From Diphasiastrum complanatum (lineage: Eukaryota > Streptophyta > Lycopodiopsida > Lycopodiales > Lycopodiaceae): 64,000 nucleotides of DNA. Below are positions 30,406 through 59,282 of this stretch, one piece after another; position 1 is the first letter of the stretch; each line of letters begins with the position of its first letter. The notes under the pieces are model-generated. The model saw nothing but the letters and a program-made list of their open reading frames with translations. It searched no databases and was not told the DNA's origin. The stretch covers positions 43,801,184-43,865,183 of the forward strand of contig CM055095.1 in assembly GCA_029204225.1 (NCBI GenBank), written 5' to 3'. The position numbers and the translations under genes were made by a program.

Positions 30406-30423
30406 AGGAGAAGGTCGATCGAG

Positions 30424-30768
30424 ATGGCAGAGCGCATACCACCGAAGCCCGAGGGCGAAGCCAGGAGGAAGCTCGAGGAAGATATCCGAAGGCACAACGA
30501 AAGACATCGGAAGCAAGAGGCAGACATTGTAGAGATGCTGCGACAGACTTGGCAGAGACACCCAGAGCTGCAGATCCCCGCCCCCTCTGTGGCCCCTGCC
30601 CCCGCTGTCGAGCTGCATTTGGATGAGCAGATCGGAATGAACTTCACACGACGGCAGCTCATCATGGTCAGGGAAAGGGTGGCCAGACGTTGGGCTAACC
30701 AGGAGGCAGAGCGAGAGCGACAAAACAATGCACCTGATGAGGGCGAGGAGTCGGTGGAGGATCAGTAG
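30424..30768 (+). CDS. Small second gene of hAT-A, 114 aa, function unknown
   Basis: Starts at ATG 30424 (MAERIPPKPEGEARRKLEED); this ATG is conserved in the other copies. The N-terminal half is a highly charged, probably helical or coiled-coil segment (RRKLEEDIRRHNERHRKQEA, DIVEMLRQTWQRH). Then come a Pro/Ala linker, the strongly conserved core LDEQIGMNFTRRQLIMVRER, an Arg-rich stretch and an acidic end (DEGEESVEDQ). It reads inward from the element's end and converges on the transposase gene, whose stop is about 520 bp away. Homologous frames are at 51720-52085, 54171-54496 and 58938-59282. No known domain is recognised. By analogy with two-gene transposons it might assist transposition or counter silencing; that is inference. 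Confidence 0.75.
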   Translation: MAERIPPKPEGEARRKLEEDIRRHNERHRKQEADIVEMLRQTWQRHPELQIPAPSVAPAPAVELHLDEQIGMNFTRRQLIMVRERVARRWANQEAERERQNNAPDEGEESVEDQ

Positions 30769-31290
30769 GCATGTTTAGAATAGATAAGGTCCAGCAGTAT
30801 GTGGCGGACTGTTGCTATGTAATTTTTGGCAGTTTAGGGTGCGACAAATAACTAGATGGCTGCTTAAGAAAAGACGGGATATGTAATGTTATCTTGATAC
30901 AACGACTGAATCAATATATAGTTGTTTTTTGTGCAACGCGAGCCTGGTCATGTGAAATGCAATCTCTGTATTTTTTTAAATGCAAATGTAATACATGTGT
31001 TTAAAATGCCGTTTGGGGTGTAGGGGTAATTGTTATGCTCATGATGTAGGTGCATTTATGTGAAGCTATCATTCACTTCATTCGAAATTAGTTGAAAATA
31101 CGATTTACACATGCACATAGAATTTGACATAAAATTGAAAAAACAGCATCACATGTATAGAGCGACATATGCACAATGTGCAACAAATAAAGGATGCCAA
31201 ACACTGAATATAATGTGAAAAATGGTCTGAGTACAATGGTCGACCGTCTGCTAGAAACAAACTACTGAAACTAAAATAATAGAGCCACAA

Positions 31291-32197
31291 TCAATGCTCT
31301 GAATCTGACTTGGTCGAATGCTCCGGAGACAACTCAGGGCCCCGAGCTGACTCTCGTAGCCGATATCTGTGCCTGTCTGGGACTGGCATGGGCTGTGTAT
31401 CCGAGGAGGAGGACTCGTCACTAGCATCATCCCAATTTGCCTCCGCATCAGCCCCCAAGCAAGCCAAACCAACAACACCTGCTCCAGCTGGCTGTAATAC
31501 TGCACCTCTAGCTGTACCTGGAGCCCTACGTGGTCGTCCTCTCTTCCCTGGCGGTTTCTGTGCCTTGCCTTTCTTGTTCGGTGCACCCTTGGGCCTTCCT
31601 GGTCTCTTGCGTACAAGAGGAGCTGTCAATGCCTCATCACCCCCATGCAAATCACCTGGCTGGCTAGGTTGGGCCCAAGCTGAGGCCGGCTGGGATAGGG
31701 AAGCAAAAGAGGGAACTCCCGGTGCAGCTGAGCGAGGAGGATGAGCTCGTGGAGTGTGTGCCCGTGGGGCTACTGCATATACCCTCTGAGGAGCTGGAGG
31801 AACTGTAGACACCTCGTGCGGCTGCTCTGGCTGGGACTCTGTGTATGGCATGCTGGCAAGAGATGAAGGAGGTGCCCTGACACTCGGCATCTGCTGAGCC
31901 TCTGAATCCAATGTGGCAATCAAGTCGTCCAGCTGGGCATCTGAATACAAATGCTTTGGGCTCTTGCCCTCATCCTGTGCACCATCCCTTGAATTTACCC
32001 GTGCCTCATCATGTGCACCCTGTAGACCCTGCATGGCCTCCCAATCTGTGCAATCAAAGTCATCTGGTGCCTCCTCTGGTGTGCTGTCGTAGTAACGGCC
32101 ATGACTCTGTACTGTACGCATCCAAACAGCTGCGGGACCGGCATCTAAATCACTCTGCCCTCTCTCAAGAGCCTCCTCCATCATGTCGACATAGGTA
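31291..32197 (-). pseudogene. hAT-A transposase C-terminal extension with AT-hooks
   Basis: The open frame from 32184 (MMEEALERGQSDLDAG) continues the transposase frame cut by copia-3. It has acidic segments (DDFDCTDWEAMQGLQG, YSDAQLDDLIATLDSEAQQM), a Pro/Ala-rich part shortened by about 125 residues compared with hAT-B and hAT-D, and two AT-hook-like motifs, KRPGRPKGAPNKKG and GKRGRPRRAP, near 31590 and 31535. It ends with an acidic tail. AT-hooks bind the minor groove of AT-rich DNA. This extension lies beyond the usual C-terminal dimerisation domain of hAT transposases. Confidence 0.72.
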
Positions 32198-32199
32198 GT

Positions 32200-33626
32200 C
32201 CTTTGACAAATGTAGGCTTGGATCCATTGGTGAGTGAGCTAATTTACAATTCATCAAATTGTATCTGTTAAGAACATTATGAAGATAGCTTTGTTGAGTG
32301 ATGTAGTCGATTTTCTCTGTCTCTATGGATTTGAATTCCCAGACAAAGAGCTTCACCCAGATCAATCATGTCGAACTCTGAGAACAACATCTATTTCGAA
32401 TCCTTAACCATATTGGTATCATTGCTGAAGAGCAACGTCTGATCCACGTACAAGGTGTTGATAATGAAGGATTGTTGCACTGACTTCGAATAAACGTTGC
32501 AATCAGTAGTGCTTGGTTTGAATCCTTGTTCAATGAGGAATGTGTTGATCCTCTGAAATCAAGCCCTGGCAGATTGTTTCAAGTCGTACAATGCTTTGTG
32601 GAGTTTACAGACATGATTTTTCATGCCTTCCAAAACGTATCCTTCTGGCTAGATCATGTAGATATCTTCTTGTATAACTCCATTCAGATTGGCTATTTGT
32701 ACATCAAGTTGATGTACTTCGAGGTCGACAGCTGTAGCATAAGACAAGAGCATTTGGATCGACGAATGTTTGGCGACTGGACTAAAAGTCTCACTGTAGT
32801 CGACATTCAGGATCTGGGTGAATCCTCGTGCTACCAGTCTAGCCTTCCTTCGATCAATTGCTCCGTTGGCATTATATTTGATCTTAAAGATCCATTTATA
32901 ATCGATGATATTGCAGCCAATAGGAGCTTCGACTAATGACCATGTCTGATTCTTGATCAGAGAGGAATACTCTCTGTCCATGGCTTCTCTCCAGATATCA
33001 GAGTCTGGTTGGCTAAGTGCCTCTTCGACTGTAGTCAATTCCTGCATTAAGAGACAGGCAGACTCAGGAGAATACCTTGTGGGCTGTGTGCGCACTCGGC
33101 TTGATCTTCTGGGAGAATTCGACTGATGAACTGCTCCTGGGACTTGTTGTTGGGTAGCAGCAACATCTTCGTCTGATTCGCTGTCTTGAAGTGGGTCGAC
33201 AATACATATGCCTGAGCCAGAAGCTTGGACTGCCATGTCAACGGCAGGTGATGAAGGTTCTTCTTGAGCAATATCCTTGCCTTTGAGGTCGACGAATTGA
33301 TCCTCGATAAAGAGTGTATTTTGGCTATACAAGACCTACTGGGTATCATGATCGTACAACTTGTAAGTGTTATCAGACAAAGTATATCCGATCAGGATGG
33401 TCTTGAGACCTTGGAAGTCCAATTTCTTCCTTGCGTCCTTTGGGATCTGCAGGTAGGCAATGCACCCAAACACTCTTAGGTTCTTCAAAGAAGGCTTAGA
33501 GCCTGTCCACACCTCGTGGGGTGTCTTGTTTGAGAGGGCCTTGGTCGAACATCTGTTCTGGATGTAAGCTGTAGTGGAGACAGCTTCAGCCCAGAATCTC
33601 TTGGGCAACGATGCATGCGATAGCAT
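32200..33626 (-). pseudogene. copia-3 integrase tail and reverse transcriptase
   Basis: From about 33720: the integrase end (GIEQQFITPYSPQSNGLAER, FWAEAVSTTAYIQNRCS, LRVFGCIAYLQIPKDARKKL), then RT (NQTWSLVEAPIGCNIIDYKW, ARLVARGFTQILNVDYSETF, LEVHQLDVQIANLNG). The catalytic motif reads LYVDQTLLFSND, with YVDQ in place of YVDD, so the polymerase is dead. It ends at SIETEKIDYITQQSYLHNVL and CKLAHSPMDPS, where hAT sequence resumes. Frames shift at about 33335 and 32650. Confidence 0.8.
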
Positions 33627-33748
33627 ACATTCAGCATATTCGACCAGAGTATGGTTCTTCCTCTCAGCTAAGCCATTAGACTGAGGACTGTAAGGAGTGA
33701 TGAATTGCTGCTCAATGCCTTGGCTTTGGCAGTCGTGATGATCATCTC

Positions 33749-34245
33749 CTAGCTGTCGTAAGAACTTGGCAAGCTTGTAAGCAGTTGCATCACTACGTCT
33801 TGATCGTCTATGACAAATCCGACAGCGGCCATTTGTCTTAGTAGGTTCTTGAATTGATTGATGTGATTCTGCAGAGAATCACCATTCGTCATCTTGAGGG
33901 AGTAGAACTTCTTCCTGAGATGTAGCTTGGAAGCTATATCTCGCACTTCATATAGTGTGCTCAAGATGTCCCAGACTTCTTTTGATGTCTGGGCCTCGGA
34001 TACATGGCCGATCTGGGTATCCATGATGTTGAGGATGATCAGCGCGAAAGCTTTTCCATCCTTCAGCTTCCATCTGGCGATTGTCAAGTCGTCCGCTTCG
34101 GGTTTCTCTTCTGCACCTATAACAACGTCATGCAATTTTTTTGCCATTAGTACAGTTTTCATCTTAAATTTTCACAGATGGTAATTGGCTCCATCAAGCT
34201 TCTCCATGATAGGACTGGCTTTCCCTTGGGAATCCATGTGGAAGG
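33749..34245 (-). pseudogene. copia-3 gag
   Basis: Gag N-terminus (PIMEKLDGANYHLWKFKMK) begins at the insertion edge. The open frame from 34162 follows: KLHDVVIGAEEKPEADDLTI, TSKEVWDILSTLYEVRD, KLHLRKKFYSLKMTNGDSLQ, MQLLTSLPSSYDS. It then jumps to the integrase end: the zinc knuckle, the protease and the integrase core are deleted. Confidence 0.78.
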
Positions 34246-37210
34246 AGGTATGCCATTGGCCCCCCTTGTGTGCCCTGCCTGTCTCCCGGTATAACCTGTG
34301 CCATGTGCCCCACCTCTACCACGTGATGCACCTATGACCCCTGTCCGTGGCGTGTGCCCTGCACCTGTATCATCTGCCTCATCCCTCTCTGATCTGGCAA
34401 ACACAACCCGAACGGGCTCATCTTCATCATGCTCATCCTCTGACACTGGCTCATCTGCCTCATACAATGGAGGCTCTCTGTGCTCAAGCCCAAGATCTCT
34501 CTCATCTAAGCAAGCTCCCTCTCTCTCTCTCTGCCATCAACTGTGTGCCCAAGTCATCTGCAGGCATGGGATGGACGCTATCCGTAGGCCACTCAACCTG
34601 GCGCTCCAAATCAGATATCTTCGTCTGCAAGGTCAAAATTGAGCGTGTCAGGATAACAACTTGCTCAAAAATTGAAACCTACATTTTTGTGAGACGTCAA
34701 CCAACATGCTATGGGAGAATAGCCCATCACCTGCAATGCGCTCGTAATGGTCGGCAGTCTCCTGGCAAGACGTGCGTTGGTGCTATAGAACACCAACCGC
34801 TCTAGCAAACTCACTGACAGCCTGTTTCTTCTCCTCGTGTGAACGAGGGCCCATGTGCTCCAATTACGCTCACACACGGAGGCAGCGCAATCCTGTGGTA
34901 CGTGCAATGAAATGGTTCAGCACATGTGCACGGGTGGAATGTCAACGAAAAAAAGCAAGAGAGGATGAGATGAGATGCATACCTGTGAAAGGACCCGCAG
35001 TGCAAGACACTGTATGGAGGGATAGGTGCTACCGAACATGGTCCACCAGGTAATGGGGAGCTGCCTCCTCTCTGGATCCTGAGCAGGCGGGTGACCGAAC
35101 GTGCCCATCCTGAAATGAAATGCAGCTAGCTCCTCCATGAGTCTGATAGGATCCAAGCCAATGTGTGGACCCACCCTGTAGATGTACTCAAGCCAATCCG
35201 ACTCGAGCTCCCTGTCTGATATCTGTGTCGGAGAGAGGAAGAGGGGATGCAAGATGTGTGCAACGCTGTGGATACTCCTGTGAAAGTAGTTCCACCGTGT
35301 CTCCCAGATGAACCTCAGCTCCGTCATCCTGCACGAAGTCGAAGCAAATTTTGGAAAAAACGTAACATCGACAGAAAAACAAACTAGCAAACACTGAAAA
35401 AATAAAAACCAATTACAACACTATACCGCTCACCTCTCTGGCTCCAAGATGGGCAGCTGCAGGAACTGTCCGATCCGATCCATGAGCTCATACACCAGTC
35501 CAAGTGTGGACCCCTCGCTGTCAGCCATGCGGAGCACAATGTAGAGTGGTCGAAGCAGTCCTGACAATGTCTGTGCATCCCTCCAGAACTGGTCTCCCCT
35601 CACCGTGGAAGAAAAGTGCTCCCCATCCTCTGTGTGCTGAAACGTACTGGCACGCCAAAGATCACTGGCAACCATCTATAGAAGCTGTGCCCTGCACCTG
35701 ATCAGACGGTCGATGACCACCAAGTCGAATGCAAAGCGTGTGGGGGCTGGCTTACGGAGGTCCAAATGGCTGAACACCCGGAACATGGCAAGAACACGCC
35801 TTTTCCTGGTGACAAAAGTCACCAGGGAGTGGGCCTCGCGGACGATGGCTCTAACCCAGGGAAGTGCACCTATGTCCCCCATGAGAAGGTCTATGTCGTG
35901 CGCTGCAAAGGGGGTATGGACGATGTGAGGGAACTTGGCCTCTAGCAGAACACCCATCTGAACGCAGTTGGTGGCATTGTCCGTCACCACCGTAACGACA
36001 TGTTGGGGGCCTATGGACAGTATGGAAGACCTAATGACTTCGTACATGAACTCTGCAGATATGACTCTCCCCCCTCTACCGCAATCCACGGCTCTCAAAA
36101 ACTGTGTACCCATGCAGCTGGAGACCAAGATGTTGAGGATCGGCCTCATTTTGACATCAGTCCAACCATCGGACTGCAACCGTAAGTGGCCCAATGGCGG
36201 CGTAGAGGCTCCATCTCTCTAGACAAGGACTCGACCCTATCCCTCAGCATGTGTGTGTGGACAATCTCTGAACCAAGGACTCTCCAGCTAGGGCTGACAG
36301 ACTGTGCAAGGCGGAATGCCCTTCTAAAGGGCTCAAAATCGGTGATGGCAAAAGGTAGGTTCAGCTCGTAAATCAAACTGGCCACGGCCTGTGTGGCCTC
36401 TCTGTCCATGTGCGGCTGATGCGCGCCGCGAATGGTTTGTTGCACAAGGGCTCTACCTGGTGGGCGACGGGTGGTGGACCTCCAGCACGGTGCACCAACC
36501 GTGACGGGAATGGACGATGACGCGACAGGCTGGGCAGCAGTGGATGCATCGGCTGTAGACGTGGAATGGGGAGAGTGGGATGCACTGGCAGGGATGGGTG
36601 CAGCAGCATAAGTGGGGTGCACTGGTGGAGGGGCAAGATCTGGCATGGGATACGAAAACTGCTGGCTAGGGAGGTCATCCGGATGGGAAGGGAAGGAAGA
36701 AGGGATCTCATCCACATCCTCGAAGGCTTCGTCAGTAGCATCCTGGGCCTGCTCGGGTGGCGGAGAGTCCATGAGAAAATCGTAAACTTGGGGTGTGCGA
36801 GCAACAGGACGTGGTGGTGGAACCGCAGTGGCAACTGGCGAACGCGATGGGACGGGATCTACCGGAATGGGTGCAGATGGGGGTGCGTTCTGGGTCAGCC
36901 ACATAAGGAGCGGTGCAAAACCGGAGAACGCCCTCCGAAATGGTGTTCTCCCCCGCCACGAGCCACGGCCCGTAGGTGTCCAGTAGTCGCTGCCTGTCGG
37001 GGACGGACATAATGCCACAAGGGGCAGCATTTAAGGTGGCACCATTATTGGCGCGTGCACCGAGCCTCTAAGGCGAGTGAGGGACGCAGCAAATTCGACA
37101 AGGCAGTATCGGCAACGCACAATCTTCTGACCGGTCTTGTTGGTCTTGTCGGCAACCCGCCTAACAATGTCTGCCTCGTCCCACAGACCAGAAAGGTCGG
37201 ATTGCACCAT
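34246..37210 (-). pseudogene. hAT-A transposase: BED finger, catalytic and dimerisation domains
   Basis: Start MVQSDLSGLWDEAD at 37210, with a BED-type zinc finger (CRYC, SLTRLRG; then a frameshift). A Pro-rich linker follows, then the RNase H-like catalytic part (DUF659 type): RLQSDGWTDVKM (first aspartate) and VVTVVTDNATNC (second). The block usually read as CAAHCIDL is FAAHDIDL here, without its cysteines. Next is FIWETRWNYFHRSIHSVAHI, and after introns near 35400 and 34915 the dimerisation domain (SVCERNWSTWALVHTRRRNR, STNARLARRLP). An acidic linker (YEADEPVSEDEHDEDEPVR) leads to the copia-3 insertion. Frameshifts make the copy inactive. Confidence 0.82.
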
Positions 37211-37590
37211 TGCGATGGAGAAAACTAGGGAAAAAATGCAAATGAAGCTAAAGCTGGAAGGATGGATTGCTGGAAAAAAAACACCACTGTTGGAGAGACG
37301 CTGAAAATGGGAGAAGGCAGGGTGAAGCAAGTCAGATGCAAGGCAGGGTGTTGCGTGGGCGAAAGGCAACGCAAGGAATCGAAGGCAGGCAGGCAAAAAC
37401 AGCAGCGATGGCAAGGCGGAGGAGGGCGCAAAAAAATTTCAGATGAAATGCAAGGGGGGTGGGTAGGTTTAGATAATTTTTTTTTTTAAATATTAAATAT
37501 TAAATAAATTATTTTATTGTGGTACCGCGGTACCAGTATGGTCCCGCGGTGCCGGGATTCGCGGTACCCACCAGTACCGCGGGACCTATG

Positions 37591-38530: not shown

Positions 38531-38639
38531 ATCTGTGCGATTTGGCTGGAGTTTTTGTCAAAGGATTTGTGTGTGTAGTCAGTCCACTCCTTCCTTCCAG
38601 AAGGATAACACAAATTCATGTCTTCAAGAGGAACTGACT

Positions 38640-40623: not shown

Positions 40624-40779
40624 AAAATTTGAATAAGTTTTGATGGCTTCTCTTCAAAAACAAAGTATGAATTGTTAATATAATGCACAAGGCACGGATA
40701 TGAACCAGCCTAAATCCTCATTCTTTCTATAATGTTCTAAAATTCCATGATTTCTGAGTAATCATGATGTGTTTTTTTC

Positions 40780-41451: not shown

Positions 41452-41459
41452 ATATATAT

Positions 41460-42106: not shown

Positions 42107-42154
<48 letters not shown>

Positions 42155-44704: not shown

Positions 44705-44946
44705 ACAAACCTTTCCCTTTCGGAAAACAGGCCATTCCTTATGGAATAGTCTTCAAGTAACTTATCATTACGGGATTGCTTGGGATCCTGCATCCCAAGG
44801 TCATCGCTATGTCTAGAATTTCCCGTCAGGACATCTAGCCAGATGCGACCAAAAAACCTATCAGTTCGACAAAGATCCCGTTGTGAAAGATTCAAATCAG
44901 ATTGGATCTCAGCAAAGCATAACTGATTAATCTCTCCAATCCGGCT

Positions 44947-46432
44947 CTAGGCATCGGCAACACAGTTCAACGTACCTTTACGATACTTAATGTCGAAGAC
45001 AAATTCCTGAATGAGTTCCGACCATCTAGCCTTACGGCCACGAAGGTCCTTGGCATCAAAAATATACTTAAGGGATTGGTGATCAGTCATTACCATAAAT
45101 CTGGCACCATAAAGATAATGCCTCCAGATTTTTAACGCGTGAATGACTGCAAAAAGCTCCTTCTCACAAGTAGAATACCTAGTCTGAGCAGGATTCAGCT
45201 TCTTGCTTTCAAAAGCAACTGGTCTACCGTCCTGATAAAGGACCGCTCCAATAGCAAAGTCGCTAGCATTCGTATCAACCACAAAGGGCCGGTTAGGTTC
45301 GACAATGTGTAAAACTGGAGCCGTAGAAATACAGTGCTTGAGAGTCTCAAAACTCTTATTCATTTCATCCGTCCACGTTATCAATGGACTTTTTCTGCGG
45401 CTACATTTTTTCTTCACCCCCTTAAGAACGTTCGTCAAGGGCAATGCTATTAAGGCATAGTCCAAAATGAACCTGTGAAAGAATCCTGTGAAGCCCAAAA
45501 AGGTTTTCACATCACGAATTGTCAAAGGTCTCGGCCACCTTACGGACTGTGTCATAATCGATTTCAAGACCTTTATCCGATATGACATTGCCCAGGTATT
45601 TGAGTTTAGTTTAAAAGAACTCACATTTCGACTCCTTAACGTAGAGCTTTTCTTGCCTTAGAAGATCTAGGACAATACGAAGATGCTCTTCATGCTCCTC
45701 AAGGGTCCGACTATAAATTAATATGTCGTCCAAATACACCACCACAAACTTTCCTAGATATGGACGAAGAATATCGTTCATCATCTGCTGGAAAGTGGCA
45801 GGCGCATTCGTGAGTCCAAAAGGTAACACTAAAAACTCATAATGGCCATATTTGGATCGAAATCCAGTCTTAGGAACATCTTCGTTCCTAATCCTTATCT
45901 GATGGTATCCTGATCTAAGATCAATCTTGGAGAAATACCTAGCCCCATTCAGACGATCCATAAGATCATCCATCCTAGGTAAGGGATATCTGTTTTTGAT
46001 GGTTAAATCATTTAGCTTTTTAAAGTCACCACACAAACGTGTGCCGCCATCCTTTTTACTAACTAAAAGGATTGGTGCTCCCCAAGGGGACTTACTAGGC
46101 CGTATGTGACCCATCCTAAGGAGTTCTTGTAACTGCTTAGAAATTTCATCCTCTTCCTTGATGCTAACCCTGTATGGAAAAAGAGATACAGGTTGGCTAC
46201 CAGGAAGCAACTCTATCTGATGGTCAGCACTCCTTTGGGGAGGTAGGCCATCAGGGAGTTTATCAGGAAAAACATCGCTATAATCTTGCCTAAGTTTGTT
46301 AAATATTATTCCTTCAGGTGAGTTAACACTTAAGGGATTATTTTCAGACACATTCAAAGGCAAATGCAATAAATCAATATTTAGACTCTGGACTGCATGG
46401 TCATCCACATAAATTTCATCTTTTAAAAACAA
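44947..46432 (-). pseudogene. gypsy-3 reverse transcriptase and RNase H
   Basis: RT from 46432 to 45611: [72 protein letters not shown] and the catalytic block [13 protein letters not shown], intact. A stop at about 45610 separates it from the RT end and RNase H (45624-44947): FLGFTGFFHRFI, FVVDTNASDFAIGAVLYQ, STCEKELFAVIHALKIWRHY, TDHQSLKYIFD. Length and motif order are normal for Ty3/gypsy. This is the only RT in the window with a complete catalytic core in its own element. Confidence 0.88.
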
Positions 46433-47841
46433 AGATTAACTTTATTACCAGAATTACATCGCCTTTTAGCTTAACCAACGAGCCTTTATGCAAAAAAGAA
46501 ATACTATGAGTAACATAATTTTTTCTTAAAGACTCGTTTTTGGAATGTAACCATTCTTTTCCTAAGATTATGTCTACGCTATCCAAGTTCATAATATGAA
46601 AATCTAGCGGTTCAACATAATCCTGAGGGACAAGTTGATCCCAAGCTTGTCGATCTTCCCCCGACGCCATTTTCACCACATACAAGTGATTACTTGGCGC
46701 GGTAGCCGTCTTGAGCTTCTGCACCAGTTTAGCATTTATGAAGTTATGTGTGGAACCATCATCAAACAGAACAGTCACAGCTTGGCGTCCTACAACTCCA
46801 TTCATACGAATGAGATCATGGGGGCCAAAAACAGCTGTATTAAAATAACAATCCTTGCAACTAGTGCCATCCTTAAAGGATAAATCAACAAAAGAAATAC
46901 TAGAATTACCTGGCGCTTTAAAAGATTTCGGTTGCCCGCCAGATTTCTTTTGCTTTTTCTTTGGGCAATCTTTTGAAAGATGGCCCTTCTCCATGCAGGA
47001 GAAGCACAAGACGCCGGTTCTCACCTTGTCGTAGTCGGCACGCTCCGCGCTTTTTCCCGCCTTGGGAACCGGTGTCTGCCGTTTTGTCTCTGCCCCGCTT
47101 CTTGAAAATTTTCTTTTCTTTCTGTTCAGCCTTGGGCAAAGCCTGCTCCTTGCGAGAGGCAAAATAGGCGTCATCGAAGATTTTCGCAAAGCGAACTGCA
47201 TCTTCGATTGTCTGCAGTTGGTTACGCCGCACTTCTAGCTGAAATTCCTTTGGAAGCCCCAGAATAAAATGTAATTTTAACAAGATAGGATCGATTCGCG
47301 AGGCGAATCGAGGCAGATTTTCTTGGAATTCCTGGATATAGGCATCTAATGGCCTAGTACCCATCTGCATGGTGGCAAAACGCCACCAATGCTCAAAATC
47401 ATCCAACACCGGAAGAAAAGCCGATTTAAAGGTTTCTTGAAAGGCGTCCCACGTAGAAGGGGCTGTAGCCCTCTCCTTAAGATCCTGCCACCATGTAAAC
47501 GCCTTTCTGCGTAAAAACATGAGAGCAGATGCGATCTTCGTACTATCAGGCGCATCGTGCATGGAAAAATGACTATTCCATCGATCTAGCCACGACAATA
47601 CCACATCGGGAAGCCGGTCTTTCTTTTCACCCGAAAAGAATTCCGGATTAAACATTGGATAAGCGCCAACAGACCGCGAGTGAGTCGAAGAACGCCACTC
47701 TTGCTCGGCCGCGGCATGCTTGGCCTGCATTTCTAAAATTTGATTTTGCAGCATATTTAGGGCCTGAACAAGCTGGTTAGTGTCTACATCAGCAGGAGGT
47801 GGTGAAGACGGTCCTTCACCCGAGGGCATAACAGGGTCCAT
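46416..47841 (-). pseudogene. gypsy-3 gag and protease
   Basis: Gag starts MDPVMPSGEGPSSPPPADVD at 47841, with a coiled-coil segment (LVQALNMLQNQILEMQAKHA), the core (LSWLDRWNSHFSMHDAPDST, ALMFLRRKAFTWWQDLKER) and FILGLPKEFQLEVRRNQLQT. A frameshift at about 47080 leads to a zinc knuckle (CFSCMEKGHLSKDC) and the protease, whose active site reads VLFDDGSTHNFI (DDG where DSG or DTG is usual), followed by VDIILGKEWL. The frame ends at 46416, just before the RT frame. Confidence 0.85.
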
Positions 47842-49003: not shown

Positions 49004-49036
<33 letters not shown>

Positions 49037-49341: not shown

Positions 49342-49357
49342 GGTGGCTTTGATACCA
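49342..49357 (-). other. gypsy-3 primer-binding site
   Basis: Minus strand TGGTATCAAAGCCACC, an initiator Met-tRNA match with one change (A for G), two bases from the LTR end. Confidence 0.8.
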
Positions 49358-49359
49358 AC

Positions 49360-49885: not shown

Positions 49886-51232
49886 GGCACAGGGCATAGG
49901 TTATACCGGGAGACGGGCAAGCACACAGGGGGGGCCAGTGGCATACCTACCTATGTCGACATGATGGAGGGGGCTCTTGATAGAGGGCAAAGTGATTTAG
50001 ACGCCGGTCCCGCAGCTATTTGGATGCGTGCAATACAGATTCATGGCCGTAACTACGACAACACACCAGAGGAGGCACCAGATGACTTTGATTGCACAGC
50101 TTGGGAGGCCATGCAGGGTCTACAGGGTGCACATGATGAGGCACGGGTTGATTCAGGGGATGGTGCACAAGATGATTCAGGGGATGGTGCACAGGATGAG
50201 GCCCAGAGCCCAGAGCATTTGTATTCAGATGCCCAACTGGACGATTGCCACATTGGATTCAGAGGCTCAGCAGATGCCGAGTGTCAAGGCACCCCCTTCA
50301 TCTCTTGCCAGCATGCCATACACAGAGTCCCAGCCAGAGCAGCCGCACGAGGTGTCTACAGTTCCTCCAGCTCCTCAGAGGGTATATGTGCGCCGCACAG
50401 CTCCTCCAGTGCCATCGATGCCATTCAGGCCTGCAGCCCCTCCATCGTCGTCCACTTATGCGGCACTAGGTCTCCATGGCAGGCCACCATTTGTGCCCAG
50501 GTTTTCTCTTGCAGCGCCCACATCCATAGTGGCTCCTCCAGCTGCTCCTCCAGTGGCAGCACCCACTCCACATCCACCTCCTTTGGCAGCACCCACTCCA
50601 CTCGCTCCCCCTTTGGCAGCACCCAGGATGTACCAGTACCGGCCACCGCAGCGCCCCTTTCAGTACATATCGCCGCTGTACTCGCCTCCTGCACAGCCAG
50701 TTCCTCCACCTGCAGCAGCCCCACGGGCACACACTCCACGAGCTCATCCTCCTCGCTCAGGTGCACAGGGAGTTCCCTCTTTTGCTTCCCTATCCCAGCC
50801 GGCCTCAGCTTGGGCCCAGCCTAGCCAGCAGGTGATTTGCATGGGGGTGATGAGGCATTGACAGCTCCTCTTGTCCGCAAGAGACCAGGAAGGCCCAAGG
50901 GTGCACCGAACAAGAAAGGCAAGACACAGAAACTGCCAGGGAAGAGAGGACGACCACGCAGGGCTCCAGGTACAGCTAGAGGTGCAGGATTACAGCCAGC
51001 TGGAGGAGGTGTTGTTGGTTTGGCTTGCTTGGGGGCTGATGCAGAGGCAGATTGGGATGATGCTAGTGACGAGTCCTCCTCCTCGGACACACAGCCCATG
51101 CTAGTTCCAGACAGGCACAGATATCAGCTGCGAGAGTCACCTCGGGGCCCCGATCTCCAGAGCATTCGTCTGAGTCAGAGCCAGAGCATTGATTGTGACT
51201 CTGTTGTTTTAGTTTCAGTACTTTGTCTCTAG
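49886..51232 (+). pseudogene. hAT-B transposase C-terminal extension with AT-hooks
   Basis: Open from 49961 (MMEGALDRGQSDLDAG) through the acidic linker, with an internal 24-bp duplication (DSGDGAQD twice). A frameshift at about 50245 is followed by the Pro/Ala-rich segment (AAPTPHPPPLAAPTP, RMYQYRPPQRPFQYI), another at about 50830, then KRPGRPKGAPNKKG and GKRGRPRRAP (two AT-hook-like motifs) and an acidic end. The sequence keeps the full proline-rich part missing from hAT-A. Confidence 0.72.
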
Positions 51233-51719
51233 CAGGCAGTCTATCATTATAATCAGATGATTTTCCACATTACATAGAGTGTTTGGTGTACTTTATTTGC
51301 TGCACATTGTGCGTATGTCGCTCTCTACATGCGATGCTGTATTTTCAATTTTATGTCAAATTCTATGTGCGTGTGTGAATCCTATTTTCAACTAATTTCG
51401 ATTGAAGTGAATGTTAGCTTCACATAAATGCACCTACATCATGAGCACAGCAATTACCCCTACACCCCAAACGGCATTTCATAAACACTTGCAATACATT
51501 TGCATTTAAAAAAATTACAGAGATTGCATTTCACATGACCAGGCTCGCGTTGCACAAAAAACAACTATATATTGATTCAACCGTTGTATAAAGATAACAT
51601 TACATATCCTGTCTTTTTTTTTAAGCAGCCATCTAGTTATTTGTCGTGCCCTAAACTGCCGAAAACTACATAGCAACAATCCGCCACATACGGCTGGACC
51701 TTATCTATTCTAAACATTC

Positions 51720-52085
51720 CTACTGATCCTCCACCGACTCCTCGCCCTCGTCAGCTGCATTGTTTTGTCGCTCTCGCTCTGCCTCCCGGTTAGCCCGAGC
51801 TGCCTCCTGGTTAGCCCGACGTCTGGCCGCCCTTTCCCTGACCATGATGAGCTGCCATTTTGTGAAGTTCATTCCGATCTGCTCATCCAAATCCAGCTCG
51901 ACACCAGGGACAGAAGCCACAGCAGAGGCGGGTGGCTTCGGTTCCAGATTTCTCTGCCGAGTCTGTCGCAGCATCTCTCAGATATTTGCCTCTTGCTTCC
52001 GATGTCTTTCGTTGTGCCTTCGGATATCTTCCTCAAGCTTCCTCCTGGCTTCGCCCTCGGGCTTCGGTGGTATGCGCTCTGCCAT
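51720..52085 (-). pseudogene. Small second gene, hAT-B copy
   Basis: Same start as the hAT-A copy (MAERIPPKPEGEARRKLEED, ATG complement at 52083-52085), 121 codons. One TGA at 51978-51980 interrupts it between EANI and EMLRQTRQR. After that the conserved core LDEQIGMNFTKWQLIMVRER and the end DEGEESVEDQ are intact. It contains one extra NREAERER-type unit compared with hAT-A. Confidence 0.72.
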
Positions 52086-52109
52086 CTCGATCGACCTTCT
52101 CCTCACAGC

Positions 52110-52250
52110 ACCCTGGTCCTTGAACACCTTCTCACAGCACCCTGGCTCTCAAACTGCCTCTCACAGTATGTCACCGGCTCTCGCTTGCTCTCTCACTATC
52201 TATCACTAGCTCTCTCACAGCCTCTGAAAATGCCGACCACAATGGCATTC
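52110..52250 (-). repeat. Degenerate CTCTCAC repeat upstream of the hAT-B small gene
   Basis: Reverse complement of the GTGAGAG run described for hAT-A (30285-30405): CTCTCACAG, CTCTCACTATC and related words, immediately before the start of the small gene. Confidence 0.6.
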
Positions 52251-52501
52251 TGAGTGCTTATTTATCCCCACAGCCTGATCGGCCATGTGGATCCCCATCA
52301 TCCCTCCATGTGCCTCTGTACGCAACTGCCCCCATGTGATGCTGCCCCCCTGAGTTGCTCTCCCATTGCACCCATGGTCTGCTCACCCACAATGCCCATA
52401 TGTCGTTGAACAAGTCCCTTGCACCATGTACTGTACCCTCTTTTTTTACACCCAGAACCCCTTTTTTTTCCATTTTTTTGACCTATTTTGGTAGGTAATA
52501 G

Positions 52502-52507
<6 letters not shown>

Positions 52508-52548
<41 letters not shown>
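52508..52548. repeat. (TA)n inside the hAT-B terminus
   Basis: About 20 TA units where hAT-A has AATATTTTTAATATTTAATT, so the tract expanded within the element end rather than at the insertion site. Confidence 0.85.
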
Positions 52549-52550
<2 letters not shown>

Positions 52551-52651
52551 CATGGTACCGCCCTGGTACTGCGGATCCCAGGGCGGTACCGTACCGGCAG
52601 TACCATTGATATGGTACCTGCGGTACCATACCAGCGGTACCAGAGGCCACT

Positions 52652-52654
<3 letters not shown>

Positions 52655-52701
<47 letters not shown>

Positions 52702-52994
52702 GGATGAGGGTCCGAGCCGGATTGCCCGCGTCCACGTCCGGACCCGGACACGTCCAACCCCTGGATGCAGGGTCGGACGCGTCCAGTTTTTTTTTTTTCT
52801 TAAACCAAAAAACCTTAAAAAATCGAAAAAAATTAAAAAAGGACGTGTCTGTACCGCACGAACGCATCCGTGGCTTCAAAAAAAAAATTTAATTTATTTT
52901 AGTCTAAAAAATTTTAAAAAATTAAAAAAAAAATCGGACGCGTCTCTAACGCGGACACACCCCTGGCACGTTCGCGTCCAGGTCCCGCTTCCTT

Positions 52995-53048
<54 letters not shown>
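52655..53048. repeat. GGACGCG-rich repeat between two (TA)n tracts
   Basis: (TA)n at 52655-52698 and 52997-53048 flank about 300 bp that starts GGGATGAGGGTCCGAGCC and ends GGTCCCGCTTCCTTAG. These ends are imperfect inverted copies (AGGGATGAGGGTCC against AAGGAAGCGGGACC). The interior has GGACGCGTCC-type words and A/T runs, as at 29245-29400. Probably a small non-autonomous element; family unknown. Confidence 0.55.
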
Positions 53049-53050
<2 letters not shown>

Positions 53051-53260
53051 TAGGTCCCACGGTACCAGGTCCCACGAATCCCGGTACCGCGGTACCATAT
53101 CGGTCGGCGGTACCAAAAAAAAAAAAAAAAAATTTTTTGCAAAAATAACACGGGAATTTTTTTTTTTTTTTTATATTATGGTACCGCGGATCCTAGAGCG
53201 GTACCGTACCGGCGGTACCATACCAGCGGTACCATACCAGCGGTACCACGGGGTACTATG
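53049..53260. mobile_element. MITE-1b: second short element of the GGTACC hAT family
   Basis: Starts CATAGGTCCCACGG and ends GGGTACTATG (reverse complement CATAGTACCC). Repeated GGTACCGCGG words lie on both sides of an A/T-run core. Flanks are ATATATAT on both sides (53041-53048, 53261-53268), an 8-bp match that is not informative within TA repeats. Confidence 0.75.
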
Positions 53261-53294
<34 letters not shown>

Positions 53295-53534
53295 CATAGT
53301 GGCACGTGGTACCGCCATTATGGTACCGCGGTACCATAATGGTGGTACAGCGGTTATGGTGCCGCCCTCAGACCAGCGGTACCAGGGCGGCACCACAAAA
53401 ATAATATTTTATATTATTTGTTTTAAAAAAAATAACCCTTTTAACAGGCTAAAACTAGGTAAAAACTAAGATGTTACTGTACAGGGGGACTATACTGGAA
53501 GCACTGTAGGAGAGCGGACCCAATCGAAGTGCGG

Positions 53535-53915
53535 CATGTGGGGGAGCAATACATGGGGCAGGTACAGTAGCACATGGGCACTGTGGAGGAGCAGACCATG
53601 GACCCAATCGAAGTGCAACATGTGGGGGAGCAATACATCCAGACAGGTACACCGTCACATGGGCACTGTGGAGGAGCAAACCATGGACCCAATCGGAGTG
53701 CAGCATGTGGGGGATCAGCACATGCGGCAGGTACAGTAGCACATGGGCACTGTGGAGGAGCAGACCATGGACCCAATCGGAGTGCAGCATGTGGGGGAGC
53801 AATACATCCGAACAGGTACACCGTCACATGGGCACTGTGGAGGAGCAGACCATGGACCCAATTGCAGTGCAGCATGTGGGGGATCAGCACATGGGGCAGG
53901 TACAGTAGCACATGG
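53535..53915. repeat. hAT-C subterminal tandem repeat, unit about 85 bp, about five units
   Basis: Units carry CACATGGGCACTGTGGAGGA, GCAGACCATGGACCCAATC, GGAGTGCAGCATGTGGGGG and GGTACAGTAG or GGTACACCGT. The hAT-D arm at 59535-59770 has about three units. Confidence 0.85.
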
Positions 53916-54170
53916 GATCATCAACAAAAGCAAATTGGGAAACAGGCTGTGGGGTTAAATAGGCACTCACGAGACAGTGAGAGAGCCAGTGAGAGGGGGT
54001 GAGAGGCATTGTGAGAAGCTGTGAGGGAGAGCCAGTGGGAGGCTGTGAGAGAGAGGCATTGTGAGAGGCTGTGTGACAGACCGAGTGAGAGGCTGTGAGA
54101 GAGCCAGTGAGAGCCATTGAGACGCTGTGAGAGGCTGTGAGGGTCATTTCGAGCAACAGGGTGTCGCGAG

Positions 54171-54496
54171 ATGGCGGAGGGCAAAGCCAGGAGGAAGCTC
54201 GAGGAAGATGTTCGAAGGCACAACGAAAGGCATCGAAAGCAAGAGGCAGACATTGCAGAGATGCTGCGAGAGACTCGACAGAGACACCGAGAGCTGCAGA
54301 TCCCCGCCCCCGCTCTCGAGATGGATTTGGATGAGCAGATCGGAATGAACTTCACACGACGGCAGCTCATCATGGTCAGGGAAAGGGCTGCCCGCTGTCG
54401 GGCTGACCAGGAGGCAGCACGGGCTAACTGGAGGCAGAGCGAGAGCGTCAGAACAATGCACCTGATGAGGGCGAGGAGTCAATGGAGGATCCATAG
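54171..54496 (+). pseudogene. Small second gene, hAT-C copy
   Basis: MAEGKARRKLEEDVRRHNER from ATG 54171, then HRKQEADIAEMLRETRQRH and the core LDEQIGMNFTRRQLIMVRER. One G is missing at about 54430 compared with hAT-D (AACTGGAGG against AACTGGGAGG), shifting the frame before the acidic end. In the original frame the stop is TAG 54494-54496. Confidence 0.72.
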
Positions 54497-54989
54497 GAAT
54501 GTTTAGCATAGACGGGGTCTAGCCATATGTGGCTAACTGTTGTTATGTAACGTTCATCAGTAGATGAGGCAGTATTTAGTGTCTAGCATGGTGTAAAGAA
54601 CAGCCCCAGCCGTATGCGGCGGGAATAGGTATTGTAATTTTGATACATCTGATGAATTAATGTACGATGTGTTTTTTGTGCAATGTGTGCCTTGTGTATT
54701 GCAATCTGATGTATGAGATTATGAAATGCTATCAGGGGGGTTGTATTTCTGTGTTCTGCATATGCTCTCAAACTCTGTACTGAAAACTAATTGAAAACAC
54801 GCACACACCATTTGAAGTAAAACTGCAAGTAGAACATCACAATTACAAATTGACAAATACACATTGTGCAGTGAATAGAATACGTCCAACACTAAATATA
54901 ATATGAAAAATGGTCTGAATACAGTGTTCGACCATCTGGCCGCCAAACATGGAACATGATATCAAACTGCTAAAAATAAAATGACGGAG

Positions 54990-55799
54990 CTACAATCAAT
55001 GCTCTGCCTCAAACTCAGATGAATGCTCCGGAGACAACTCAGGGCCCCGAACTGACTCTCGCAACTGATATCTATGTCAGTCTAGTACTGGCATGGGCTG
55101 TGTATCCGAGGGGGAAGACTCGTCATCCTCATCCTCCCAATTTGCCTCCGCATCAGCCCCCAAGCAGGCTAAACCAACAACACCTGCTGCAGCTGGCTGT
55201 AATACTGCACCTCTACCAGCAACTAGAGCCCTGCGAGGTCGTCCTCTCTTCCCTGGCAGTTTCTGTGCCCTGCCTTTCTTGTTCGGTGCACCCTTGGGCC
55301 TTCCTGGCCTCTTGTGGACGAGGGGAGCCGTCAATGCCTCATCACCCCCATGCAAATCACCTGGCTGACTAGGCTAGGCCCAAGCTGCGGCCGGCTGGGA
55401 TAGCGTAGCTAAAGATGGGTGTCCCTGTGCAGTTGATAGTGGAGGATAGGTCCGAGGAGTGTGTGCCCGTGGGCCTGCTGCTGGTGGAGGAACTGGATGT
55501 GGAGGGGCCATCCCTGCAGGAGGCAAGTACAGCGGCGATAAGTACTGAAAGGGGCGCTGTGGTGGACGGTACTGGTACATCCTGGGTGCTGCCAAAGGAG
55601 GAGGATGTGCTGTGGGTGCTGCCAAAGGAGGAGCCGGTGCCGTGGGTGCTGCCAATGGAGGAGGATGTGCTGTGGGTGCTACCACTGGAGGAGCGTCTGT
55701 AGATGTGGGTGCTGCAAGAGAAGATCTGGGCACAGATGGTGGCCTGCCATGGAGACCTGCTGCTGCAAAAGTGGATGGCGATGAAGGGGCTGCAGGCCT
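54990..55799 (-). pseudogene. hAT-C transposase tail
   Basis: The Pro/Ala-rich segment (55799-55374) and AT-hook segment (HKRPGRPKGAPNKKG, GKRGRPRRAL; 55355-55077), then the acidic end in broken frame. Stops at about 55377 (AWA*PSQ) and 55079 (VLD*) interrupt it. Confidence 0.72.
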
Positions 55800-55804
55800 G
55801 GGGA

Positions 55805-58440
55805 GCACTTTTCTTCCACGGTCAGGGGAGACCAGTTTTGGAGGGATGCACAGACATTGTCAGGACTGCTTCGACCACTTTACATTGTGCTCCGCATGGC
55901 TGACAGCGAGGGGTCGACACTTGGACTGGTATATGAGCTCATGGACCGGCTTGGCCAGTTCCTGCAGCTGCCCATCTTGCAGCCAGAGAGGTAAGCGGTA
56001 TAGTAATGTAATTGGCCTTTATCTTTTTAGTAATTGCTAGTTTGTTTTTTTGTCAATGTTAAGTCTTTTCGTAATGCCCTACACCACATGCCTCTCACCT
56101 GCAGGATGACAGTGCTGAAGTTCATCTGGGAGACACGGTGGAACTACTTCCACAGGAGCATCCACAGCGTTGCACACATGTTGCATCCCCTCTTCCTCTC
56201 TCCGACACAGATCGCAGACAGGGAGCTCGAGGCCGATTGGCTTCAGTACATTCACAGGGTGCGTCCACACATAGGTTTGGATCCTATCAGGCTCATGGAG
56301 GAGCTCGCTACATTTCGTTTCGGCATGGGCACTTTTGGCCACCCGGCTGCTCAGGATCCAGAGAGGAGGCAGCTACCCATTACCTGGTGGACCATGTTCG
56401 GTAGCACATACCCATCTATACAACGTCTTGCACTGCGTGTCCTTTCTGAGGTATGCATCTCATTTTATCCTCCATTGTTGTGTTTCGTTGAAGACAATGT
56501 GCTGAAGTATTTCAATGCACGCACCACAGGACCGTGCTGCCTCCGTGTGTGAGCGTAATTGGAGCACATGGGCACTCATTCACACGAGGAGAAGAAACCG
56601 GTTGTCAGTGAGTCAGTTGGAGCGGTCGGTGTTCTGTAGCACCAACGCACGTCTCGCCAGGAGACTTCCGACCATTACGAGCGCATTGCAGGTGATAAGC
56701 TAACCTTTCATAGCATGTTGGTTGACTCCTAGTATGTTGGTTTCATTTCTTGATAGAGTTGTTTCTCTGACATGCCAATTTTAAACCTTGCAGACGAAGA
56801 TATCTGATTTGGAGCGCCGGGTTGACTTGCCTACGGACAGCACCCATCCCATGCCTGCAGATGACTTGGGCACACAGTTGATGGCAGAGAGAGAGAGGGA
56901 GCTTGCCGAGATGAGAGAGAGAGAGAGCTTGGGCTTGAGCAAAGAGAGCCTCCATTGTACGAGGCAGATGATCCAGTGTCAGAGGATGATCAGGATGAGG
57001 ATGAGCCCATTCGGGTTGTGTTCGCCAGATCAGAGCGGGATGAGGCATATGATACAGGTGTTGGGCACACGCCTAGAGCAGGGGTCACAGGTGCATCACG
57101 TGGTAGAGGTGGGACACATGCCACAGATTATACCGGGAGACGGGCAGGGCACACAGGGGGTGCCAGTGGCATACCTTCTTATGTTGATATGATGAAGGAG
57201 GCTCTTGATAGGGGGCAGAGTGATTTGGGTTTACCTTCCGCAGCTGCTTGGATGCGTGCATCACTGAGCCATAGGCATTTCTATGACAGCACACCAGAGG
57301 AGTCACCAGATGACTTTGATTGTACCGATTGGGAGGCCATGCCGGGTCCGCACGGTGCACAGGATGAGGCACGGGATGTTCCAGAGGATGGTGCTCATGA
57401 TGAGTCCCAGAGCCCAGAGCATTTGTATTCGGATGCCCAGCTGGACGACTTGATTGCAGACTTGGATTCAGAGGCCCAGCAGATGCCGAGCGTCAGGGCA
57501 CCCCCATCCTCTCTAGCCAGCATGCCCTACACAGAGTCTCAGCCAGAACAGCTACACGAGGTGCCTGCAGTTCCTCCAGTTCCTCAGAGGTTGTATGTGC
57601 GCCGCACAGCACCTCCAGTGCCACCGATACCGTTGAGGCCTGCAGCCCCTTCATCGCCATCCACTTTTGCAGCAGCAGGTCTCCATGGCAGGCCACCATC
57701 TGTGCCCAGATCTTCTCTTGCAACACCCAAATCTACAGACGCTGCTCCAGTGGCAACACCCACAGCACATCCTCCTCCATTGGCAGCACCCACGGCACCG
57801 GCTCCTCCTTTGGCAACACCCACAGCACATCCTCCCCCTTTGGCAGCACCCAGGATGTACCAGTACCGTCCACCACAGCGTCCCTTTCAGTACTTATCGT
57901 CGTTGTACTTGCCTCCTACAGGGACGGCCCCTCCACATCTAGTTCCTCCACCAGCAGCAAGCCCACGGGCACACACTCCTCGGACCTATCCTCCACTATC
58001 AGCTGCACATGGACACCCATCTTTAGCTACTCTATCCCAGCCGGCCGCAGCTTGGGCTCAGCCTAGTCAGCGCAGGTAATCTGCATGGGGGTGATGAGGC
58101 ATTGACGGCTCCCCTCGTCCGCAAGAGGCCAGGAAGGCCCAAGGGTGCACCAAACAAGAAAGGCAGGGCACAGAAACTGCCAGGGAAGAGAGGACGACCT
58201 CGCAGGGCTCCAGTTGCTGGTAGAGGTGCAGTATTACAGCCAGCTGCAGCAGGTGTTGTTGGTTTAGCCTGCTTGGGTGCTGATGCGGAGGCAGATTGGG
58301 AGGATGAGGATGACGACTCTTCCCCCTCGGATACACAGCCCATGCCAGTACCAGACAGACATAGATATCAGTTGCGAGAGTCAGTTCGGGGCCCTGAGTT
58401 GTCTCCGGAGCATTCATCTGAGTTTGAGGCAGAGCATTGA
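55805..58440 (+). pseudogene. hAT-D transposase, C-terminal exons
   Basis: Exons by eye: to 55990 (GDQFWRDAQTLSGLL-type sequence), 56105-56450 (FIWETRWNYFHRSIHSVAHM, LPITWWTMFGSTYPSIQRLA), 56530-56691 (SVCERNWSTWALIHTRRRNR, the dimerisation domain) and 56794-58440. GT-AG sites flank each, which shows the family's gene is spliced. The last exon carries an acidic linker, the Pro/Ala-rich repeat (PTAHPPPLAAPTAPAPP, YQYRPPQRPFQYL), then, after a one-base insertion near 58068, AT-hook motifs KRPGRPKGAPNKKG and GKRGRPRRAP and the acidic end SSEFEAEH. Without the catalytic part it cannot be active. Confidence 0.8.
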
Positions 58441-58937
58441 TTGTAGCTCCGTCATTTTATTTTTAGCCGTTTGATATCATGTTCCATGTTTGGCGACCAG
58501 ATGGTCGAACACTGTGTTCAGACCATTTTTCATATTATATTTAGTGTTGGACGTATTCTATTCACTGCACAATGTGTATTTGTCAATTTGTAATTGTGAT
58601 GTTCTACTTGCAGTTTTACTTCAAATGGTGTGTGCGTGTTTTCAATTAGTTTTCAGTACAGAGTTTGAGAGCATATGCAGAACACAAATACAATCCCCCT
58701 GATAGCATTTCATAATCACATACATCAGATTGCAATACACAAGGCACGCATTGCACAAAAAACACACCGTACATTAATTCATCAGATGTATCAAAATTAC
58801 AATACCTATTCCCGCCGCATACGGCTGGGGCTGTTCTTTACACCATGCTAGACACTAAATACTGCCTCATCTACTGATGAACATTAAATAGCAACAGTCA
58901 GCCACATACGGCTAGACCCCATCTATGCTAAACATTC

Positions 58938-59282
58938 CTATGGATCCTCCACTGACTCCTCGCCCTCATCAGGTGCATTGTTCTGACGCTCTCGCTCTGC
59001 CTCCCAGTTAGCTCGTGTTGCCTCCTGGTCAGCCCGACGGCGGGCAGCCCTTTCCCTGACCATGATGAGCTGCCGTCGTGTGAAGTTCATTCCGATCTGC
59101 TTATCCAAATCCAGCTCGACAACGGGGGTGGGGGCCACAGCGGGGGCGGGGATCTGCAGCTCTGGGTGTCTCTGCCGAGTCTCTCGCAGCATCTCTGCAA
59201 TGTCTGCCTCTTGCTTCCGATGCCTTTTGTTGTGCCTTCGGACATCTTCCTCGAGCTTCCTCCTGGCTTCGCCCTTCGCCAT
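58938..59282 (-). CDS. Small second gene, hAT-D copy, open, 114 aa
   Basis: MAKGEARRKLEEDVRRHNKR from the ATG at 59282, followed by HRKQEADIAEMLRETRQRH, a Pro/Ala/Val linker, DKQIGMNFTRRQLIMVRER, an Arg/Ala/Glu-rich helix and the end DEGEESVEDP. The frame is fully open. It differs from the hAT-A protein by scattered, mostly conservative changes, while the sequence after the stop is much less similar. Convergent with the transposase gene, about 500 bp between the two stops. Confidence 0.75.
   Translation of the reverse strand: MAKGEARRKLEEDVRRHNKRHRKQEADIAEMLRETRQRHPELQIPAPAVAPTPVVELDLDKQIGMNFTRRQLIMVRERAARRRADQEATRANWEAERERQNNAPDEGEESVEDP

Follow-up and report, generated by a model that had tools for sequence, protein, structure and literature searches.

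A conserved second gene accompanying the transposase in a DUF659-type hAT family of the clubmoss Diphasiastrum complanatum

The transposons Ac, Tam3, Hermes and Tol2 are textbook examples of hAT elements that encode a single protein. Accessory proteins encoded beside the transposase are known from other superfamilies, as with mudrB of MuDR and tnpA of En/Spm. In PIF/Harbinger elements, which have a 3-bp target site duplication (TSD), the second protein is Myb-like (PMC10741241), and the VANC proteins of VANDAL elements are sequence-specific anti-silencing proteins (PMC5735166, PMC10398659). In grapevine a second open reading frame was ascribed to PIF elements, and none is shown for hAT elements in the accessible part of that study (PMC2528002). 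In rust fungi, the TET+ hAT7 elements display a 7-bp TSD and a second gene coding for a TET/JBP dioxygenase, which is found in many transposon superfamilies; this gene lies upstream in the same orientation in three hAT7 families (PMC12730594). Here, a stretch of 64,000 nucleotides from the clubmoss Diphasiastrum complanatum (contig CM055095.1, positions 43,801,184 to 43,865,183; hereafter the window) was analysed, in which four hAT copies carry a small gene in addition to the transposase gene. The original prediction on this DNA set the single transposase of classical hAT elements such as Ac against the two-gene designs of MuDR, CACTA and Harbinger elements. For hAT as a whole this needs correcting, as a second gene has already been described in TET+ hAT7 of rust fungi, the sole precedent met. 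Among the papers listed by searches of the open-access literature (subscription papers and Repbase reports were outside their scope), none describes a conserved second gene in a plant hAT.

Each of the four copies in the window (A to D, Table 1) carries a frame of about 114 codons which is convergent with the transposase gene and lies about 500 bp past the transposase stop. All four frames were located at the coordinates and on the strands originally predicted, and their state was also as described, A and D being open, B interrupted by a stop and C by a single-base loss. All other length differences comprise entire codons (A lacks 21 nt and C 18 nt). In line with what had been claimed, both the A/B and the C/D groups share the core EQIGMNFTRRQLIMVRER and a charged N-terminus (with EQIGMNFTKWQLIMVRER in B and KQIG in D). 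The length of the frame alone is not unlikely, since 45 of 300 mononucleotide shuffles of the GC-rich terminal stretch contain an ATG frame of 114 codons or more; a chance open frame, left possible by length, was ruled out by the comparison between copies. Sites fixed between A/B and C/D amount to 12/300 (4%) in the small frame, against 77/270 upstream and 95/402 downstream (24–29% in the flanks), when alignment columns with gaps are omitted together with the first 9 codons, where A/B and C/D lack conservation. The corresponding count in the transposase C-terminus is 31/409, and the small frame has 37 private and 2 complex changes in addition. The frame is therefore better conserved than its surroundings, and the approximately 500 bp past its stop have strongly diverged, both as predicted. 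Recent identity by descent was rejected as the cause of this conservation because the flanks of the very same copies diverge.

A search of the 1.745-Gb genome (5176 contigs) for copies of the family gave 3762 first-look candidates; the 150 best were scored, and every one of them matched. A further search, for D-type small frames, gave 3583 first-look candidates. Twenty of the 150 listed copies (L009–L028), mostly top-scoring and hence biased to intact ones, were fetched with 9.9-kb surroundings. The copies sort into subfamilies A, B and D. All pieces were present in order in five of the twenty (L011, L017, L018, L025 and L028), the rest being deleted, interrupted or truncated. The full order begins with the small gene (+), followed on the opposite strand by the transposase C-terminal tail, the hATC region, DUF659, the N-terminal piece and the first pieces. 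L018 is a clean element of 6110 bp with the small gene inside, flanked by an exact 8-bp TSD (CTTTGTAG). Its terminal inverted repeats (TIRs) read CATAGTG on the left and CATAGGT on the right (reverse complement), with imperfect similarity further inward. A TSD scan of the 20 copies yielded candidates with no more than 2 mismatches in seven of them: L018, L028 (6236 bp, 7 of 8 positions), the 2657-bp deletion derivative L014 with its small gene retained (7 of 8), and four copies whose candidates are uninformative because they lie within (TA)n. The hAT features seen in the family are thus an 8-bp TSD, short TIRs and a DUF659 transposase.

The pairing of the small gene with the transposase was assessed from the transposase side. 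Among the tails reaching the C-terminus in the fetched loci and the window, 23/24 have the small frame convergent at 489–604 bp; 13 of the 24 had been selected via the small frame, and among the other 11, 10 are paired (4/4 in the window and 6/7 in the loci). Genome-wide, the 150 best D-type tails were compared by position with the 150 best D-type small frames. A listed small frame was found within 8 kb of 66 of these tails, convergent in 66/66 cases and at 400–700 bp in 62, where chance would give 0.02 pairs within 700 bp. Two of the 84 tails without a listed partner were inspected; in each of them a degenerate version of the small frame occupies the position expected. In subfamilies A, B and D, the small gene lies within the inverted ends at a fixed spacing and orientation to the transposase gene, so that the predicted presence of the frame in family members elsewhere was borne out.

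Selection on the small frame was evaluated by the ratio of non-synonymous to synonymous divergence (dN/dS), the first 9 codons being omitted here too from the fixed-difference and the consensus values. When the fixed differences are read in all six frames, the ratio is lowest in the sense frame (0.24), with 1.44 and 1.91 in the shifted sense frames and 0.40, 2.97 and 0.31 in the antisense frames. An antisense reading was rejected on this basis, though 0.40 and 0.31 are not far off, and these two values make the six-frame test by itself not decisive. Raw pairwise ratios of the window frames are weak (A–D 0.58, C–D 0.73, A–B 0.46, A–C 0.42, B–D 0.31), as expected if dead copies have drifted since. 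Between subfamily consensuses the small frame shows 0.18 (A–B), 0.19 (A–D) and 0.20 (B–D), with Fisher p values of 2.8e-5, 2.0e-3 and 2.2e-6; these values, well below 1, agree with the earlier claim that the small protein was selected for. Small-frame consensuses were built from 21 A, 5 B and 3 D copies and from 8 copies of a divergent P type (see below), those of the transposase from 8 A, 3 B and 3 D copies, some of them partial. The transposase consensuses gave 0.04–0.18 for DUF659, 0.09–0.22 for the N-terminal piece, 0.22–0.64 for hATC and 0.31–0.56 for the tail; the constraint on the small protein was about that on large parts of the transposase and exceeded that on the transposase tail. 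Within subfamilies A and B, the small-frame ratio rises to 0.33–0.36 for all changes and 0.54–0.57 for singletons, and within D to 0.8 (15 non-synonymous and 6 synonymous changes), values that lean low because the copies were picked by score with a bias to intact ones. Such a rise from consensuses to private changes points to selection on the active lineages and relaxation in single copies. These substitution patterns show that purifying selection acted on the small protein during the active period of the subfamilies.

It was considered whether the stretch might be conserved as DNA or RNA, for instance as a terminal enhancer or binding site, or whether the copies are merely recent, with no protein function involved. 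The synonymous divergence (dS) between A and D, which is low in the small frame (0.134 vs 0.275–0.304 in the transposase pieces), and the low ratios of two of the three antisense readings would fit this. It is nevertheless highly improbable given the 24–29% fixed differences in the flanks of the same copies, the ratios of 0.18–0.20 in three comparisons and the in-frame indels, to which the protein-level similarity to a distant homologue and the restoration of the frame by intron removal, both presented below, are added.

The small protein contains about 19% Lys+Arg and 19–24% Asp+Glu. An AlphaFold model based on 15 sequences predicts two long helices (residues 2–38 and 69–101), a Pro/Ala-rich link and an acidic tail, with a mean predicted local distance difference test score (pLDDT) of 81. 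Residues shared by 15/15 sequences include G64, N66, Q71, L72, M74, V75, E77 and R78 (P0001 numbering), which lie near where the second helix begins. In a profile search of 5.8 billion proteins, P0001 and P0002 were the sole matches. P0001 (114 aa) is a D. complanatum protein with 91% identity to that of copy D; P0002 (89 aa) is encoded on a 1071-bp contig and shows 37% identity over 70% (E 3.1e-3, and 2.5e-20 once included in the profile). No further homologue was obtained in a wider-alignment protein search among the 7993 candidates sharing most words, and scans of viral contigs with D and P0002 gave no match. By its sequence, the small protein is a member of an undescribed protein family.

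Searching the genome with P0002 gave 149 matches at 39–72% identity (best 150 of 1843 candidates scored). Eight loci of this divergent P type (L029–L032 and L034–L037) were read, along with L038, which is P0002-like, and, for one more copy (L039), the stretch on its 5' side. P-type proteins are 52–59% identical to P0001 (six of the eight loci compared). The gene starts with ATGGCAGGGCGCACACCAACTGAC in L035, with small variations in L029, L031, L034 and L037, and lacks the ATG in L030. It is split by an intron of about 107 nt (106–113 nt) with a GTGA donor and a CAG acceptor, after removal of which the frame continues; the intron is readable in 7/8 loci (five donors identified by script, L032 and L037 by eye), L036 lacking the first exon. 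At none of the nine divergent loci (the eight P loci and L038) was a transposase tail found at the usual convergent spacing. In L031, an N-terminal transposase piece lies on the opposite strand more than 4 kb off, and a piece of the tail on the strand of the small gene itself; L029 has a D-like transposase fragment on the same strand as the P-type gene, and L036 a separate D-type element bearing its own small gene. No hAT transposase was found in the stretch 5' of L039. On these nine loci, a constant place of the small gene beside a hAT transposase is not supported for the protein family as a whole.

These intron-bearing relatives, with their moderate identity to P0001 and their lack of an adjoining tail, could be taken to mean that the small gene came from a host gene family or from another mobile element, was captured once by the hAT lineage and persists outside of it. 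Such a foreign origin is very unlikely in our view, as P-type copies are multicopy repeats (149 listed matches with P0002), several of them near (TA)n tracts, and as resemblance to hAT copies extends to the P-type 3' region, with the core of the motif CCAGCCGTATGTGGCGG exact in 5/8 P loci, and, in L032 and L035, to the 5' leader. The hAT-like leader and 3' region and the (TA)n setting point rather to an ancient sister lineage within this element. With no tail adjoining it, the P type is an old, broken-up sister lineage, an element dependent on others, or a carrier of the gene in its own right. A bolder and rather doubtful reading is that a plant hAT lineage turned into an obligate two-protein transposon with an undescribed helical protein family and spawned satellites with the accessory gene only (the P type), helper and transposase spreading partly separately. 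Beside the P-type genes L029–L032, a repeat made of GGGTCCG and GGACGCG arrays next to (TA)n was observed by eye upstream, and also in the window at about 52700–53000 and 29260–29380; it may be a P-type element terminus or a separate miniature inverted-repeat transposable element (MITE).

Taken together, the fixed differences, the consensus dN/dS, the pairing with the tails, the ends and TSD of L018, the distant homologues, the in-frame intron and the helix model make it very probable that the small gene is a selected protein-coding accessory gene. A direct helper role in transposition is held with about half that confidence. In the mechanism proposed, the DUF659-type hAT would encode a transposase and, from the other element end, a convergent accessory protein of about 114 aa that is highly charged and largely helical. 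The TATA-like block GGCTGTGGGGATAAATAAGCACTCA, a candidate promoter, would allow the small gene to be transcribed on its own from the element end toward the transposase gene. Alongside the transposase, the small protein would serve in trans as an accessory factor of transposition; it likely dimerises via its helices and may bind the transposase, the GGTACC-rich subterminal arrays, or both. Binding could assemble or license the excision complex, as do the second proteins of PIF/Harbinger, MuDR and En/Spm, to which the protein is unrelated. An accessory role of the small protein seems the most likely, and a two-protein DUF659-type hAT family with the small protein as transposition accessory factor is the best overall explanation, to which about an even chance is given.

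Repeated non-coding sequences are a further property of the family. Besides the GGTACC-rich subterminal arrays, the 17-nt motif CCAGCCGTATGTGGCGG follows the small gene in copies of each subfamily: in the window it has 5 matches at up to 3 mismatches, where 0.03 are expected, four of them at 51681–51697, 54606–54622, 58812–58828 and 58899–58915 and the fifth given in Table 1, and its 13-nt core was found in 26/39 loci, some of which overlap. Such repeats past the stop and in the arrays could be the targets of a silencing antagonist, in which case the small protein would bind the non-coding repeats of the element and cause loss of methylation or heterochromatin, as VANC does for VANDAL in Arabidopsis, so that the transposase is expressed. 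The separate conserved gene and the large number of candidates in both first-look searches, which suggests that the family escaped silencing at some time, speak in its favour. The small protein is much shorter than VANC and resembles nothing known, and this role is judged unlikely. The small helical protein offers a concrete candidate for either a transposition helper or a silencing antagonist.

As the two genes converge, their stops about 500 bp apart, a self-limiting regulator also comes to mind: the small protein would repress or titrate the transposase, or the convergent transcript would be an antisense RNA to the transposase 3' end, and copy number would be held in check. Retention of the small gene on deletion derivatives (L014) would suit a repressor, as would the absence of adjoining tails in the divergent subfamily, since a repressor can work in trans. 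Among competing copies, selection maintains a repressor less readily, and antisense RNA alone would not yield a sense-frame dN/dS of about 0.2; we regard this explanation as quite unlikely.

Several observations weigh against an accessory gene that works with the transposase of its own element. One tail of the 24 (L022) has no small frame. In deletion derivatives like L014 the small gene persists although the transposase is not intact, so it need not mark autonomous elements. At 7/9 divergent loci the convergent strand holds no transposase piece at all, adding to the missing tails, and the ratios toward the P type, with unaligned ends omitted, are higher than among the other subfamilies (A–P 0.58, B–P 0.52, D–P 0.47). 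No Pfam family reaches the cut-off for the small protein (none for P0001, weak matches for other members with a best E of 0.015), and no chain in PDB matches it at E up to 1. The predicted template modelling score (pTM) of 0.32 leaves the arrangement of the helices undefined in the model. Finally, the low A–D synonymous divergence of the small frame and the mosaic-like look of the subfamilies (B–D hATC dS 0.061, A–B tail dS 0.07) indicate that exchange between subfamilies by recombination, or constraint at the nucleotide level, may add to the contrast with the flanks. The B–D comparison of the small frame is free of this problem (dS 0.349, dN 0.069), and its ratio is still 0.20.

The accessory-factor reading can be set beside the described systems. 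With the DUF659 lineage of plant hAT elements, the clubmoss family shares DUF659, a hATC-like region, short TIRs and the 8-bp target duplication, and it differs by the second conserved gene and by a long tail after hATC with two motifs which we take to be AT-hook-like. TET+ hAT7 is likewise a hAT with a second protein-coding gene; the clubmoss protein is small and helical, is encoded convergently, shows no TET/JBP match in Pfam, and belongs to an element with an 8-bp TSD in another host. PIF/Harbinger elements also combine a transposase with a second element-encoded protein, but the clubmoss protein has no Myb match in Pfam and the TSD is 8 bp. VANDAL with VANC, MuDR with mudrB and En/Spm with tnpA are functional analogues in having an accessory protein beside the transposase; they belong to other transposase superfamilies, and the small protein lacks similarity to any described family in Pfam or PDB. 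A second gene kept under selection, with thousands of first-look candidates in the genome, suggests that the hAT superfamily can take on accessory proteins in plants too.

The transposase is assigned to the hAT superfamily by the predicted DUF659 and hATC-like region of copy A. Five relatives of the transposase were found, three with DUF659 and PF05699 and two with DUF659 and PF26664; the closest is a hypothetical protein of Ceratopteris richardii (P0003, DUF659 and hATC) with 36% identity over 37% of the query. The N-terminal piece is conserved among copies and contains a C-x2-C stretch, presumably of the BED-finger type, for which Pfam gives no BED match in the window fragment. Beyond hATC follows a long Pro- and acid-rich tail, in which the motifs RPGRPKG and KRGRPRR are found in all four window copies and whose frames are open up to 569 aa elsewhere in the genome; P0003 shows no significant match with it (best E 1.7). 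The transposase gene is incomplete in all four window copies, being split in A by a copia-type fragment (about 32199–34241) and devoid of its N-terminal part in B, C and D. Copies C and D stand head to head as inverted neighbours (junction 55799/55800). C may be an inverted duplicate of D; its similarity to D is no greater than that of the remote copy L024. The four window copies are not certainly independent insertions. The left end of copy A is worn (CCCTGG...) and is followed by a GGTACC-rich subterminal array, and its right end reads GACCTATG. A second, more distant hAT (DUF659 about 45% identical) was noticed at L022 (oriented 8695–9662) and at L033, where it is cut by a Ty3-type element; no small frame was seen beside it, which is uninformative as the Ty3-type insertion interrupts it.

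Table 1. Positions in the window of the hAT copies, their small genes, transposase parts and non-coding features
Feature	Position	Strand	Remarks
hAT copy A	29842..37590	- (transposase strand)	Ends defined by the family ends of copy L018
TATA-like block GGCTGTGGGGATAAATAAGCACTCA	30234..30258	+	Nearly the same in A, B and C; start codon about 165 nt downstream
Small gene, copy A	30424..30768	+	114 aa, fully open
17-nt motif CCAGCCGTATGTGGCGG	30791..30807	+	1 mismatch; directly past the small-gene stop of copy A
Transposase C-terminal tail, copy A	31291..32184	-	Two motifs taken to be AT-hook-like, 31585-31605 and 31525-31545
hATC-like transposase part, copy A	34917..35390	-	Equivalent in D: PF05699 E 0.015, weak, below cut-off
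DUF659 domain of transposase, copy A	35676..36194	-	PF04937 E 2.5e-29
Transposase N-terminal part, copy A	36146..37414	-	C-x2-C stretch present
hAT copy B, 5'-truncated	49888..52655	+	Right end TGATAGTGGCC beside a (TA)n tract
Small gene, copy B	51720..52085	-	121 codons plus stop, one in-frame stop
hAT copy C, 5'-truncated	53295..55799	-	Terminus CATAGTGGC at 53295 abuts (TA)n; inverted neighbour of D
Small gene, copy C	54171..54496	+	One single-base loss and an 18-nt in-frame deletion
hAT copy D, 5'-truncated	55799..59932	+	hATC-like part 56034-56552; tail 56955-58440 in two frames
Small gene, copy D	58938..59282	-	114 aa, fully open; 91% identical to P0001

Insertion into (TA)n microsatellites is frequent in this family. 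Of the 20 fetched A-type copies, 13 have a CATAG left end that can be read; among these 13, seven abut a TA tract directly and L022 nearly does; insertions abutting (TA)n were recorded in the window at 53295 and 52645–52655 and in L011, L015, L017, L019, L021, L024 and L026. Targeting of TA microsatellites has been described for the Mutator-like Ac-mMITEs of pineapple, with 9/10-bp TSDs outside microsatellites (PMC8449440), and for MuTAnT, also Mutator-like. Frequent insertion into (TA)n is common to these elements and the clubmoss family, which differs by its DUF659 hAT transposase and 8-bp TSD. From their sequence, the two tail motifs could steer integration to TA tracts. Between (TA)n tracts of the window, a MITE-like unit of about 280 bp (53015–53294) was noted, whose ends and GGTACC arrays resemble those of the hAT family. 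Long frames inspected by eye in 1–20353 and 43738–47841 of the window correspond to remains of Ty1/copia- and Ty3-type retrotransposons and to reverse-transcriptase fragments of the non-LTR (long terminal repeat) type.

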